From positions 1 to 64,000 of the forward strand of contig NZ_JAENIJ010000003.1 of NCBI RefSeq assembly GCF_016595435.1: a DNA stretch of 64,000 nt. Reading direction: 5' to 3'. Shown here piece by piece: positions 43,341 to 49,155 of this stretch. The notes under the pieces are model-generated. The model had not been told where the DNA came from and ran no database searches. It saw only the letters and a program-made list of their open reading frames with translations. A program made the position numbers and the translations under genes. The stretch is from Luteolibacter pohnpeiensis. GTDB taxonomy: Bacteria > Verrucomicrobiota > Verrucomicrobiia > Verrucomicrobiales > Akkermansiaceae. The stretch's first letter is position 1; each line of letters starts with the position of its first letter.

Positions 43341-43472
43341 GGGAATGCGAAAAAGACCGGTTGGGATGACCGTGGATTTACCTGAAACTTTGCTGGGTTG
43401 ATGGTGTTTTTATCGGTGGAGCGGCTCAATGATGGGCCGGAAACCTGGTCAAGAAAAACGCTTATTTTGCCG

Positions 43473-44165
43473 ATGAAAACAATCTCCATTTCGCAAATCG
43501 TCGCAGGACTGCTGCTGCCGGGTGCTGTTCAGGCCCAAGAGGTTCCCAAGAATCCACCGCAAGAGCAGCACGTTCCGGGACCCCATGCTCACGACGATGG
43601 AGATCCTGGCGGCCCGCCGGACGATCAAGGTTGGCGCAAAGCTGACACCGACGGCGATGGAAAGCTCTCGAAAGAAGAATTCATGGCAATCACCAGAATT
43701 GGCCAGTTGCCGGAAGAGAAACGGGAATTGCTGTTCGCTCGCTTGGATAAAGACTCAAATGGCAGCTTGGATGCGGATGAACTGGAGCGAGGTCGGCCCC
43801 GTCGTGGCCGTCCAATGCGTCGGCTCTGGGAGCTGGATGTGGACCACAGCGGCGGCGTGAGCTTCGAGGAATTTAAAAATGGCGAGATGTTCAGCAAACT
43901 GCCACCGGAAAAATGTGAGGAACTCTTCAAGCGACTCGACACCGATGGGGATGGGGAGATCACGGGCAAGGACCGACCAGAACCACGGCCCGCACCTGAA
44001 CCCGCCGAAATTGTCAAAATGTTGGACACCGACGGCGATGGATTGGTGTCCTACGAAGAATTCAAGAAGGACCCGTTTGTCGAGCGAATGATCGATCGCG
44101 AGATTGAACGCGAAATGAACGACAGCCCGCCGGAATTTGATCCTGAAGAGAATTCAGGAGAGTGA
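43473..44165 (+). CDS. Exported EF-hand calcium-binding protein, five EF loops
   Basis: 230 residues from ATG 43473; the frame opens at 43398 but the signal peptide (KTISISQIVAGLLLPGAVQA) starts here. A His/Pro-rich stretch (HVPGPHAHDDGDPGGPPDD) follows, then five EF loops: DTDGDGKLSKEEF, DKDSNGSLDADEL, DVDHSGGVSFEEF, DTDGDGEITGKD and DTDGDGLVSYEEF. Each has the Dx[DN]x[DS]G pattern with Glu or Asp at the end. Such proteins bind Ca2+ in the periplasm or outside; the target is unknown. A bidirectional terminator follows. Confidence 0.92.
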   Translation: MKTISISQIVAGLLLPGAVQAQEVPKNPPQEQHVPGPHAHDDGDPGGPPDDQGWRKADTDGDGKLSKEEFMAITRIGQLPEEKRELLFARLDKDSNGSLDADELERGRPRRGRPMRRLWELDVDHSGGVSFEEFKNGEMFSKLPPEKCEELFKRLDTDGDGEITGKDRPEPRPAPEPAEIVKMLDTDGDGLVSYEEFKKDPFVERMIDREIEREMNDSPPEFDPEENSGE

Positions 44166-46756: not shown

Positions 46757-47080
46757 TTACTTCCCGGCGGTATCTTTCTTGGCAACGTTTGCGATGGCGG
46801 GTTTGTCGAATTCGAGAATCGTTCCTTCCGCGACTTTCACCATCACTGTGTGCTCTTTGACGTGGTGAACGATGCCGTGGAGACCAGCCGTGGTGACGAC
46901 GCGATCACCATTTTGAAGCGCTGCAATGCGAGCTGCTTGTTCCTTCCGCTGCTTCTGTTGTGGCCGAATCATGAGGAAATACATGATGACGATCAGGCCG
47001 ATGAACATGGGCGCCTGACTCGTGAATGGATTGGGTGTGGTATTGGCGGCTAGGACGGAAACAGCGGAAAGTGGACTCAT
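46757..47080 (-). CDS. yajC: Preprotein translocase subunit YajC
   Basis: 107 residues. One membrane segment with the family core APMFIGLIVIMYFLMIRPQQ then KQRKEQAARIAALQNGDRVV, followed by TTAGLHGIVHHVKEHTVMVK, the usual YajC fold. YajC is part of the SecDF-YajC holotranslocon. The start overlaps the tgt stop by 4 bp, so translation is coupled. Confidence 0.97.
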   Translation of the reverse strand: MSPLSAVSVLAANTTPNPFTSQAPMFIGLIVIMYFLMIRPQQKQRKEQAARIAALQNGDRVVTTAGLHGIVHHVKEHTVMVKVAEGTILEFDKPAIANVAKKDTAGK

Positions 47081-48219
47081 GGCGTGGTGGATTGCGAATT
47101 ACGGGTGTAGCGATCGATGAAATTCTTTTTGAAATCGAGGAAATTTCCGGCGGAAATGGCCTCACGCGCCTCACTGACAAGGCGGAGGTAGAAATGCAGA
47201 TTATGAAAGGAAAGCAAGCGCAACCCTAGGATTTCCCCGGCGCGGAAAAGATGGCGCAGGTAAGCGCGTGAAAATCCGGCGACGTGTGGATGCGCGCTTT
47301 CGCAAATCGGCCGCGGATCTTTGGCGTGAATCAGGTTTTTGATGTTGATCGGCCCGTCCAGCGTGACGGCCATGCCGTGGCGGGCAATCCGGGTTGGCAT
47401 GACGCAATCGAACATGTCGACGCCTCGACCGATCATTTCCAGAATTTGCGGTGGGGTGCCAAGTCCCATGGCATAGCGCGGCTTGTTCTGCGGCAAAAAT
47501 GGCACGGCGTTGTCGATCGCGCGGAACATTTCTTCTTCGGGTTCGCCGACGGAAACCCCGCCGACTGCGTAGCCGTCGAAGTCCATTTCCACCAATTCGC
47601 GGGCTGATTGCTCGCGCAGGTTGGCATAGATGGAGCCTTGAACGATGCCGAAGTGATGCTGGCGTCCGGTGCCGGAGCGTGGCTCGTTGGCTGTTATCCA
47701 GTCCTTGCAACGTCTGGCCCAACGAGTGGTCAATGCCAGAGACTTGGCGGCGTAGGCTTCATCGCACGGATAGGGCGGGCATTCGTCGAACAACATCGCA
47801 ATGTCCGATCCAAGTGCTGCCTGGATTTCCATGCTCAGTTCAGGGGTGAGCAGCATTTTTGAACCATCCAGGTGGTTTTGGAAATGAACGCCCTCCTCCG
47901 TGATCTTACGAAGTTTGGATAGTGACCAGACCTGAAATCCGCCGGAATCGGTGAGAATCGGTTTCTGCCAGGTGGTGAAATCATGCAAGCCACCAAGTTC
48001 CTTGATCAATTCGTGCCCCGGGCGGAGCCAGAGGTGGTAGGTATTACCGAGAATGATCTGTGCCCCGAGCAGATCCAGCTCTGTTGGGTGCAAGGTTTTG
48101 ACCGATCCTTGAGTGCCAACCGGCATGAAAATCGGGGTCTCGACCTTGCCATGAGGCAGCACGAGCTCGCCTCGGCGAGCGGAGGATGCGGGATCAGCGG
48201 CTAGAACGGTGAATGACAA
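47077..48219 (-). CDS. tgt: tRNA-guanine transglycosylase, zinc cluster altered
   Basis: 380 residues, normal length. Catalytic blocks are intact: TPIFMPVGTQGSVKTLHPTE, LTDSGGFQVWSLSKLRKI (Asp for base binding), AVGGVSVGEPEEEM, and VDMFDCVMPTRIARHGMAVT (nucleophile Asp). Tgt exchanges guanine 34 for preQ1 in Asp, Asn, His and Tyr tRNAs. The C-terminal zinc site is odd: ordinary Tgt has CxCxxC three residues before the SRAYL motif; here the stretch reads PICESAHPHVAGFSRAYL, with one Cys and two His displaced from the usual places, while the later His in LSFHNL remains. First gene of the tgt-yajC-secDF operon. Confidence 0.95.
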   Translation of the reverse strand: MSFTVLAADPASSARRGELVLPHGKVETPIFMPVGTQGSVKTLHPTELDLLGAQIILGNTYHLWLRPGHELIKELGGLHDFTTWQKPILTDSGGFQVWSLSKLRKITEEGVHFQNHLDGSKMLLTPELSMEIQAALGSDIAMLFDECPPYPCDEAYAAKSLALTTRWARRCKDWITANEPRSGTGRQHHFGIVQGSIYANLREQSARELVEMDFDGYAVGGVSVGEPEEEMFRAIDNAVPFLPQNKPRYAMGLGTPPQILEMIGRGVDMFDCVMPTRIARHGMAVTLDGPINIKNLIHAKDPRPICESAHPHVAGFSRAYLRHLFRAGEILGLRLLSFHNLHFYLRLVSEAREAISAGNFLDFKKNFIDRYTRNSQSTTP

Positions 48220-48418
48220 GGGACGGGGTGGATACGGCAGAAGAGCCTCCAGGCCAAGTGAAAAGGGGGTTCCAGCGGCAACCTGCGCACCGGAAAGCGA
48301 TTTTTAGCGGAAAAAACGAATAAATTTTCCTGACGACTTTCTTATGATCGCGTAGTTTCATCATCCGAAGTCGGATTTCCACGAAACCAACCCATCGAAC
48401 CCCTAATCACCAAAAACC

Positions 48419-48688
48419 ATGAAATATCTGTTCAGCATGCTTTTCGTCGCTTCCATGACCGCTTCCTTCGCACACGCTGAGTGCGAAAAATGCAAGGATG
48501 GCGAAAAGAAAAAGGAAACTGTGACCCTCACCGATTGCGACAAGTGCAAGAAGGGTGACAAGAAGGAAGAAACCGCGCTCGCCGAATGCGACAAGTGCAA
48601 GAAGGGCGATAAGAAGGAAGAAACTGCCCTTGCTGATTGCGACAAGTGCAAGAAAGGCGATAAGAAGGAAGAAACTGCGATCGCTTGA
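48419..48688 (+). CDS. Small exported CxxC/Lys-Glu repeat protein
   Basis: 89 residues. Signal peptide KYLFSMLFVASMTASFAHA, cut before ECEK. The mature chain of about 70 residues is four copies of one unit: a first diverged copy (ECEKCKDGEKKKET) and three close copies of 17 residues (DCDKCKKGDKKEETALA). Each has one CxxC followed by Lys/Glu-rich sequence, giving eight Cys. No domain is recognised. It may bind metal ions or be held by disulfides; neither is shown. Strong terminator just after the stop, so it is its own transcript or the end of one. Confidence 0.75.
   Translation: MKYLFSMLFVASMTASFAHAECEKCKDGEKKKETVTLTDCDKCKKGDKKEETALAECDKCKKGDKKEETALADCDKCKKGDKKEETAIA
48533..48685 (+). repeat. 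Three tandem 51-bp coding repeats
   Basis: Units at 48533-48583, 48584-48634 and 48635-48685, each 17 codons; neighbouring units differ at only a few positions, mostly synonymous. A diverged 54-bp unit lies before them (48479-48532). Unit length is a multiple of three, so copy-number change by slippage would keep the frame. Confidence 0.92.
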
Positions 48689-48712
48689 TTCGAGTTTTTT
48701 GAGTCTTCAGTC

Positions 48713-48754
48713 AGCCGTCCGGGGAATTTTTCTACCGGCGGCTTTTTTATTTTT
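48713..48754 (+). terminator. Rho-independent terminator of the CxxC repeat gene
   Basis: Arms AGCCG-T-CCGG (48713-48722) and CCGG-CGGCT (48735-48743) with one bulged T and a 12-nt loop, then TTTTTATTTTT. It lies 25 bp past the repeat gene's stop and just before mutT. Confidence 0.88.
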
Positions 48755-48765
48755 ATCATTCAGAG

Positions 48766-49155
48766 ATGCTGGAAGTCGTTTGCGGGTTAATGCTGGATGC
48801 GGACGGGAGGGTGCTGGCGTGTCGTCGAGCGCCGGGCCGCTCCATGGGTGGTTTTTGGGAGTTTCCCGGCGGAAAAATTGAAATCGGAGAAGCGCCGGAA
48901 CAGGCGTTGCGGCGGGAATTGATGGAGGAGCTGGCGGTGGATGTGAAAGTGGGTGAGCCTCTTGAGCCGGTAGTCTGGGAAGGTGATACGACGCGAATCC
49001 GGCTTTCTCCCTTCTTGTGCAGAATCTCCGGTGGGACTCTCGTGCCGATTGAACACGATGAAATCCGTTGGTGTGCCTGGACCGAGCTGGCAGATCTGGA
49101 ATGGGCGCCGGCCGATCGGCCGATTGTGAATGAATTCATAACTCGAAACAGCTGA
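48766..49155 (+). CDS. mutT: MutT-type Nudix hydrolase ((d)NTP pyrophosphohydrolase)
   Basis: 129 residues, typical MutT length. Opens EVVCGLMLDADGRVLACRRA then SMGGFWEFPGG, and the Nudix box is complete: GKIEIGEAPEQALRRELMEE (38-57, G-x5-E-x7-RE-x2-EE). The tail DEIRWCAWTELADLEWAPAD is the usual MutT close. It hydrolyses oxidised nucleotides such as 8-oxo-dGTP, or a related (d)NTP. Symbol given for family; activity on 8-oxo-dGTP is inferred. Confidence 0.88.
   Translation: MLEVVCGLMLDADGRVLACRRAPGRSMGGFWEFPGGKIEIGEAPEQALRRELMEELAVDVKVGEPLEPVVWEGDTTRIRLSPFLCRISGGTLVPIEHDEIRWCAWTELADLEWAPADRPIVNEFITRNS

Follow-up and report, generated by a model that had tools for sequence, protein, structure and literature searches.

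A near-core, probably secreted family of CxxC repeat proteins in a verrucomicrobial genus

Introduction

A short gene in the 64-kb stretch of DNA analysed here (hereafter the window) encodes little other than a signal-like N terminus and a string of units carrying paired cysteines. What such a protein is, how widely it is held and what it might do for the cell are the questions raised by this locus. The gene is easily overlooked because it is short, low in complexity and without conserved partners. We find that it belongs to a near-core, repeat-built, probably secreted family that is unnamed in the libraries and literature searched. Our proposal for the function of the protein is a reasoned guess.

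Results

A protein of four CxxC units

The repeat gene encodes 89 residues, in which a putative Sec-type signal peptide is followed by units of 18, 17, 17 and 17 amino acids, each consisting of one CxxC and a stretch rich in Lys and Glu (Table 1). The C terminus coincides exactly with the hydrophobic tail of unit 4. A preliminary description of this DNA had reported the open reading frame, the signal-like N terminus, the four units and the 51-bp period, and we recovered all of them. It had rightly called three units nearly identical, because unit 1 is 18 residues long and diverged; the changes among the 17-residue units 2 to 4 are limited to D/E and L/I.

Tandem Repeats Finder places the array at 48475-48684, with a period of 51, 4.1 copies and a score of 246, and reports no other tandem array in the window. 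Identity at a lag of 51 is 0.68 inside the array; among 210-bp stretches taken across the window in steps of 10 and compared at lags 30-79, the best other one reaches 0.44. Opposite the repeat gene, an antisense frame of 118 amino acids is open (48403-48759, minus strand), and several relatives are likewise open on that strand. These frames are probably a by-product of the repeats.

Secretion of the protein is probable, as predicted from its signal-like N terminus. In the alignment of 80 family members, M1 and K2 of the signal peptide are invariant; the hydrophobic N-terminal stretch common to all members is imposed by the selection filter of our script, and the signal pattern was read by eye.

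Table 1. Positions of the repeat gene, its parts and its surroundings in the window
Feature	Position	Strand	Basis
CDS of the repeat protein, stop codon included	48419..48688	+	ORF, homologues, purifying selection between units
Putative Sec-type signal peptide MKYLFSMLFVASMTASFAHA; Glu21 the likely first residue after cleavage	48419..48478	+	by-eye reading
Unit 1 ECEKCKDGEKKKETVTLT, diverged, 18 aa	48479..48532	+	unit parsing
Unit 2 DCDKCKKGDKKEETALA	48533..48583	+	Tandem Repeats Finder, DNA identity
Unit 3 ECDKCKKGDKKEETALA	48584..48634	+	Tandem Repeats Finder, DNA identity
Unit 4 DCDKCKKGDKKEETAIA	48635..48685	+	Tandem Repeats Finder, DNA identity
A/T-rich UP-element-like block GAATAAATTTTC, upstream of the promoter-like boxes	48318..48329	+	Gibbs motif, 86 upstream regions
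-35-like CTGACG, one base off the family consensus CTGGCG	48330..48335	+	Gibbs motif
-10-like TAGTTT, family consensus GG.TAnnnT	48353..48358	+	Gibbs motif, exact counts
Presumed 5' leader, A/C-rich, G-poor, without Shine-Dalgarno-like site	48365..48418	+	base composition
Intrinsic terminator, hairpin and T-run	48714..48749	+	RNA fold; kept downstream of relatives
Divergent neighbour of the repeat gene	47077..48219	-	ORF; context only
Downstream neighbour of the repeat gene	48766..49155	+	ORF; context only

Selection on the units

The DNA of units 2 to 4 is pairwise identical at 44, 45 and 46 of 51 bases; the preliminary description took the likeness of the repeats in DNA to suggest recent duplication. 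The nature of the differences refutes this: they lie mainly at silent sites, where 14 are counted over 26.7 synonymous sites, as against 4 over 126.3 non-synonymous sites, and this silent-site divergence rules out recent duplication of the 51-bp units. Across the family, pS is 0.333, pN is 0.047 and pN/pS is 0.142 (254 unit pairs from 56 proteins), only pairs of units equally long and no less than 60% identical being compared, a choice that pulls pN down, so that the ratio serves as a guide. It lies below 1 in all 56 proteins tested. Units 2 to 4 are old at silent sites and are held alike as peptide by selection. That selection preserves the peptide argues that this frame is translated.

The preliminary description had suggested comparing repeat number across related genomes. 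It varies between species, the 80 complete members carrying 2-10 units each, and it differs even in similar species with identical signal peptides (7 units in G001, 5 in G013). Leaving out first units, 348 units were compared; 214 of them are most like another unit of their own protein, 108 are most like a unit of a different protein and 26 tie, a distribution that fits partial homogenisation.

Distribution of the family

A single-sequence search at E 0.1 matched 37 of 99 relatives, a few of them falsely. With a profile of 11 members (A1; E 0.001), matches were obtained in 67 of the 73 genomes of the genus, a few of them fragments at contig ends, and in 45 of the 48 genomes of good quality. 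Homologues with this unit, on whose existence the preliminary description had made its case depend, are present, and the family is near-core in one verrucomicrobial genus.

Among 288 genomes drawn from the order, the A1 profile matched 50, in 6 of 50 genera. One of these six, g29, contributes one atypical protein (L156), and genus g21, with genomes of 2.2-3.5 Mb, gave no match among the genomes listed. When 387 genomes of the phylum were searched with a larger profile (A2), two weak matches appeared outside the family (G408 and G476); both come from short Cys/Lys proteins that lack the bead tail, and they were not counted as members. A match in G087 and a weak second match in the window's own genome proved false on reading. 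The long-frame matches of G022 and G053:C98 were assumed to be false, and a weak second match (G316:C28) was left aside.

The 91 holders comprise these 67 in the genus and 24 outside it. A distinct ORF was obtained from 86 of them under a filter of a signal-like start, at least 4 Cys and K+E+D above 33%, and 80 of the 86 reach a stop. The holders that gave none are three contig-end fragments (G020, G026 and G104), one locus without a start (G037) and one that passed no filter (G249). Named holders are Roseibacillus persicicus, which is filed under Verrucomicrobiales, and R. ishigakijimensis.

Anatomy and composition of the beads

The 80 complete members yield 430 units, or beads, when the proteins are cut by a pattern. 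Exactly two Cys occur in 360 of these units, three in 30, four or more in 27, and one or none in 13. The spacing between two Cys is 2 residues in 191 units, 4 in 75, 3 in 68 and 5 in 24. Mature chains contain 2337 Lys, a single Arg and 11 aromatics in 8853 residues, and the filter on Cys and K+E+D by which members were selected leaves Arg and aromatics unconstrained. Cys makes up 10.8% and Lys 26.4%. About half of the His (47 of 95) directly precede Cys, all as HCGKC.

Lys, Asp and Glu together account for 56% of mature residues, and the mature protein is predicted to be disordered (AlphaFold2 with 80 sequences: pLDDT 48.5, pTM 0.18, short helices at three CxxC). Disorder, repeats and such a composition would suit a hydrophilin or stress protectant that is secreted and works through its Lys/Glu-rich disorder, with Cys playing a secondary part. 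Against this very unlikely reading stand the strict pairing of Cys in most units and C22, which is invariant in the alignment of 80.

The paired Cys would find a use in a disulfide-linked extracellular or envelope matrix, in which Cys pairs would link chains, the charged beads would form a hydrated gel or coat and bead number would set the cross-link density. An oxidising compartment favours disulfides, and the predominance of two Cys per unit, the signal-like N terminus, the disorder, the polyampholyte beads and the hydrophobic tail of each bead all agree with such a coat. However, Cys residues so near each other are more apt to form a loop inside their unit than a cross-link, HCGKC units would be superfluous for cross-linking, and inspection by eye showed neither a surface anchor nor a sorting signal. 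We regard both the matrix and its tuning by bead number as doubtful.

The tails of the beads are themselves regular. Ala closes 390 of the 430 units and 75 of the 80 proteins (Val 4, Ile 1), 42 of the 80 proteins end in TLA, and the oriented tail motif occurs 214 times forward and once reversed. A hydrophobic tail closes 79 of the 80 proteins, exactly at the C terminus, the exception being the atypical L156. Moreover, the units meet at TLA|DC in a way that resembles the end of the signal peptide, AFA|DC. The Ala-ended tails, these junctions and the tail placed at the C terminus could mean that the protein is a multicopy precursor, cut by a protease after the TLA-type tails into several nearly identical two-Cys peptides of 16-25 residues with a role as signals, metallophores or antimicrobials; if the tail were a mere linker, it would not have to stand exactly at the C terminus. 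On the other hand, no recurring linked protease, transporter or receptor was seen by eye, the sequences diverge quickly between species, and whole-unit duplication alone also predicts a complete last unit. On balance, we consider such processing unlikely.

Expression signals and neighbourhood

The repeat gene stands alone. Gibbs sampling of 86 upstream regions, with the sampler forced to place one site in each, gave GAATAA(A/T)TTTC followed by CTGGCG, about 17 bases and TAnnnT. Exact GAATAA, at a median of 86 nt before the ATG, is found in 45 of the 86 regions (shuffled mean 5.3), exact CTGGCG in 30 (shuffled mean 1.9), and CTGGCG with TAnnnT after 16-18 bases in 24 (shuffled mean 0.1), counts drawn from related and hence not independent species. 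The excess over shuffled sequence points to a promoter conserved in part of the family. The putative promoter is read here as one of sigma-70 type, preceded by an A/T element; its hexamers match sigma-70 poorly, and an ECF-like reading (GAATAA ... TCTGA) is a possible alternative. A promoter scan missed the -35-like box of the window.

A regulon sharing this promoter was considered but finds no support. The pattern GAATAAWTTTYNNCTGGCG, allowing up to 2 mismatches, matched 26 times in 12 genomes, where its reversed form matched 10 times; this slight surplus is spread over scattered places, in a weak test that recovered the repeat gene's own promoter in one (G031) of 10 genus genomes searched.

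Bases -45 to -1 of 86 members contain 40% A, 33% C and 10.5% G. None of the 86 leaders has a Shine-Dalgarno-like site; in a crude control of long ORFs, spurious frames included, 27 of 201 have one and G is 27%. The fold of the leader is unexceptional (z -0.19). A/C-rich, G-poor leaders without Shine-Dalgarno-like sites are seen across genera and may reflect a way of starting translation that is general in this group.

The gene had also been credited with a terminator of its own, and the downstream RNA agrees, folding at -17.1 kcal/mol (z -2.74, none of 200 shuffles as good). A terminator-like stem and T-run follow the gene in 68 of 80 family loci; in mononucleotide-shuffled DNA put through the same test, such hits average 1.25 and never exceed 4. 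This crude test misses 12 of the 80, the window copy included, and a strict terminator scan of the window called none behind the repeat gene, probably because the stem holds bulges.

The divergent neighbour, presumably tgt (tRNA-guanine transglycosylase), adjoins in 33 of 86 family loci. The downstream neighbour, which we take to be NUDIX/mutT-like, adjoins in 25 of the 76 loci with enough downstream DNA, and both neighbours are present in 18 of those 76. Because neighbours vary elsewhere, context does not tell the function. At some distance in the window (43398-44165, plus strand), a gene adjoining secDF encodes a protein with several DTDGDG-type calcium-binding motifs, presumably EF-hand-like.

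Searches of known families and literature

No curated family in Pfam, NCBIfam, PDB or PHROGs fits the repeat protein at the thresholds used, which upholds the earlier statement that it has no recognised domain. Metallothionein and copper-storage models of Pfam and NCBIfam match none of the 80 members at E 0.01. A PDB profile search gave nothing, nor did searches with the window protein of plasmids (tblastn) and PHROGs. Pfam and NCBIfam models for scorpion toxins, defensins, collagen-like adhesins, HPE1-like proteins and others each match at most 4 of 80 members, apparently by chance, through Cys or low-complexity patterns. A multihaem protein, suggested by CxxCK as a haem motif, was dismissed as well: CxxCK is not kept and the spacing varies. 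Literal unit strings are absent from the open-licence literature searched, and among the titles and abstract openings listed from open-licence work on bufferins and MNIO, metallothioneins and Verrucomicrobia, none describes the family.

MNIO enzymes and the repeat gene

Short Cys repeats behind a signal peptide invite comparison with bufferin-type RiPPs, in which case an MNIO enzyme would modify the Cys of the repeat protein before export. The window's genome does have one MNIO gene and, according to PMC12452194, a sizeable share of Buf1/Buf2 precursors are unlinked to MNIO genes, so that distance alone does not exclude this reading. The distribution of the enzyme nevertheless opposes it. MNIO (PF05114) is found in 12 of the 73 genus genomes, all 12 of them holders, and in 8 of the 24 holders outside the genus, leaving 71 of 91 holders, many of them draft genomes, without a detectable MNIO. 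In each of the 20 carriers, the MNIO gene and the repeat gene are on different contigs or separated by over 200 kb, and the MNIO gene in the window's genome adjoins its own small Cys precursor. NCBIfam bufferin models match none of the 80 members at E 0.01, in a weak test: two of four MNIO-linked control precursors matched BufA2 (1.3e-7 and 0.0024, both under the cut-off). On the strength of the MNIO distribution and the enzyme's own precursor, we reject bufferin-type modification as the general mechanism. It is unlikely in general, and for the repeat protein we judge it very improbable.

The MNIO operon of the window's genome (L116:4472-7517, contig C155) includes a 77-amino-acid Cys/Lys precursor of its own and partners that by eye look DUF2063-like, DoxX-like and sigma-factor-like. 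Another operon (L155:2480-4864, minus strand, genome G168) has a DUF2063-like gene and a precursor of GKDKDKDDCPGKDKEKKEETVLA-like units: five one-Cys beads of GKDKDKDDCPGKDKEKKEETVLA type, then Cys-free beads. Similar repeat precursors are seen in L204, L205, L206 and L208.

The A1 family profile matches the L155 precursor at E 3.2e-6, which raises the question of common descent. From 22 MNIO loci, 17 precursors were collected (4 loci gave none under the filter, and one precursor was found in two loci). With the unit profile, 12 of the 17 outscore all 200 shuffles. However, for 6 of the 17, two of which belong to those 12, the reversed sequence scores no lower, so that common descent is not established, and a sequence link was not upheld by this control. 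The oriented tail, which occurs 28 times forward and twice reversed in the 17 precursors, favours a link, the pattern having been written after the sequences were seen.

Discussion

An exported thiol polymer

As a class, explanations by metal binding or by disulfides still account best for the repeat protein. Within this class, our tentative preference, held at somewhat less than even confidence, is for a Sec-exported, unmodified, metallothionein-like thiol polymer that would buffer soft metals. This proposal builds on what was computed, namely the family and its architecture, selection on the units, conservation of the terminator and in part of the promoter, and the absence of MNIO in most holders. 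From there we infer export, expression, metal binding and a benefit to the cell.

Synthesis of the repeat protein would be driven by its own promoter and G-poor leader, and the signal peptide would direct it to the periplasm or outside and then be removed. Each bead would offer two Cys thiolates in a polyampholyte of Lys, Asp and Glu. Beads might pair up to hold thiophilic ions, for example Cu(I), Zn or Cd, in which case capacity would scale with bead number. Unlike bufferins, the protein would need no MNIO modification. Recombination would add, remove and homogenise beads, while selection would keep the peptide.

The metal reading rests on composition and analogy, and we put it slightly below an even chance. 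The composition of the protein recalls metallothioneins, and two kept Cys with floating spacing would be expected of a flexible ligand sooner than of a redox site in a folded protein. The rare but placed His, the predicted disorder and the selection that preserves the units are likewise counted for this reading, as is the likeness in build to the MNIO-operon precursors, whose wider class, the bufferins, chelates copper (PMC12452194). A Cys content of about 11% is low for a metallothionein and counts against it, as do the lack of matches to metallothionein and copper-storage models and the 6 of 17 MNIO precursors that fail the reversed-sequence control; in an oxidising periplasm the thiols may, besides, end up in disulfides and not bind metal. 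By eye, from cluster sequences, no recurring metal gene lies beside family loci, the usual neighbours being tgt and mutT; no metal-regulator site was identified, and the weak regulon test gave no clear regulon. A more specific version, to which we give rather less credence, sees in this near-core, single-copy protein, with its two-thiol bead string, a modular, enzyme-independent counterpart of bufferins, its bead number tuned by recombination and its TLA-like tails perhaps allowing protease release of metal-binding peptides.

A gene held by nearly every genome of a genus and yet outside every curated family searched is unlikely to be trivial. If metal buffering is correct, exported thiol buffering would be possible by plain repeats without RiPP enzymes, and the series of 2-10 beads would be a natural one for relating capacity to bead number. 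Since named Roseibacillus holders with strain numbers exist, the question is directly testable.

Comparison with known systems

Bacterial metallothioneins such as SmtA and MymT are Lys-rich and aromatic-poor. They are cytosolic and are not known to be tandem repeats, whereas the repeat protein has a signal-like N terminus and regular beads with tails. The family shares with metallothioneins that it is small, Cys-rich, Lys-rich and aromatic-poor, its Cys content being modest for that class. In a review (PMC7558416), a figure legend places metallothioneins in the cytosol, and SmtA resembles the repeat protein in being small and Cys-rich, folding only after metal binding. Csp1, in the same review, is likewise exported with many Cys, there for Cu(I); it carries a Tat signal and forms a rigid bundle of four helices, whereas the repeat protein is predicted to be disordered and has a putative Sec-type signal.

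Bufferins, which are MNIO-modified RiPPs, chelate copper according to PMC12452194. The Buf_EGKCG/oxazolin type described there has a Sec signal, as predicted for our family, and, like our family, a variable number of short repeats with two Cys motifs each, and Buf1 and Buf2 precursor genes are known apart from MNIO, as in the repeat family. In contrast to bufferins as presented there, the family lacks EGKCG repeats, gives no bufferin-model match at E 0.01 and is predicted to be disordered instead of beta-helical; MNIO is undetected in most holders and never adjacent in its carriers.

The nearest architectural parallels are the MNIO-operon precursors of the same bacterial family. They share the signal-like start, K/E/D-rich units almost without Arg and, in some, a variable repeat number, and 10 of the 17 have an oriented hydrophobic tail such as KKEETVLA, as the repeat family does. 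They differ in often having one Cys per unit (DDCPGKDK) and in their signal peptide.
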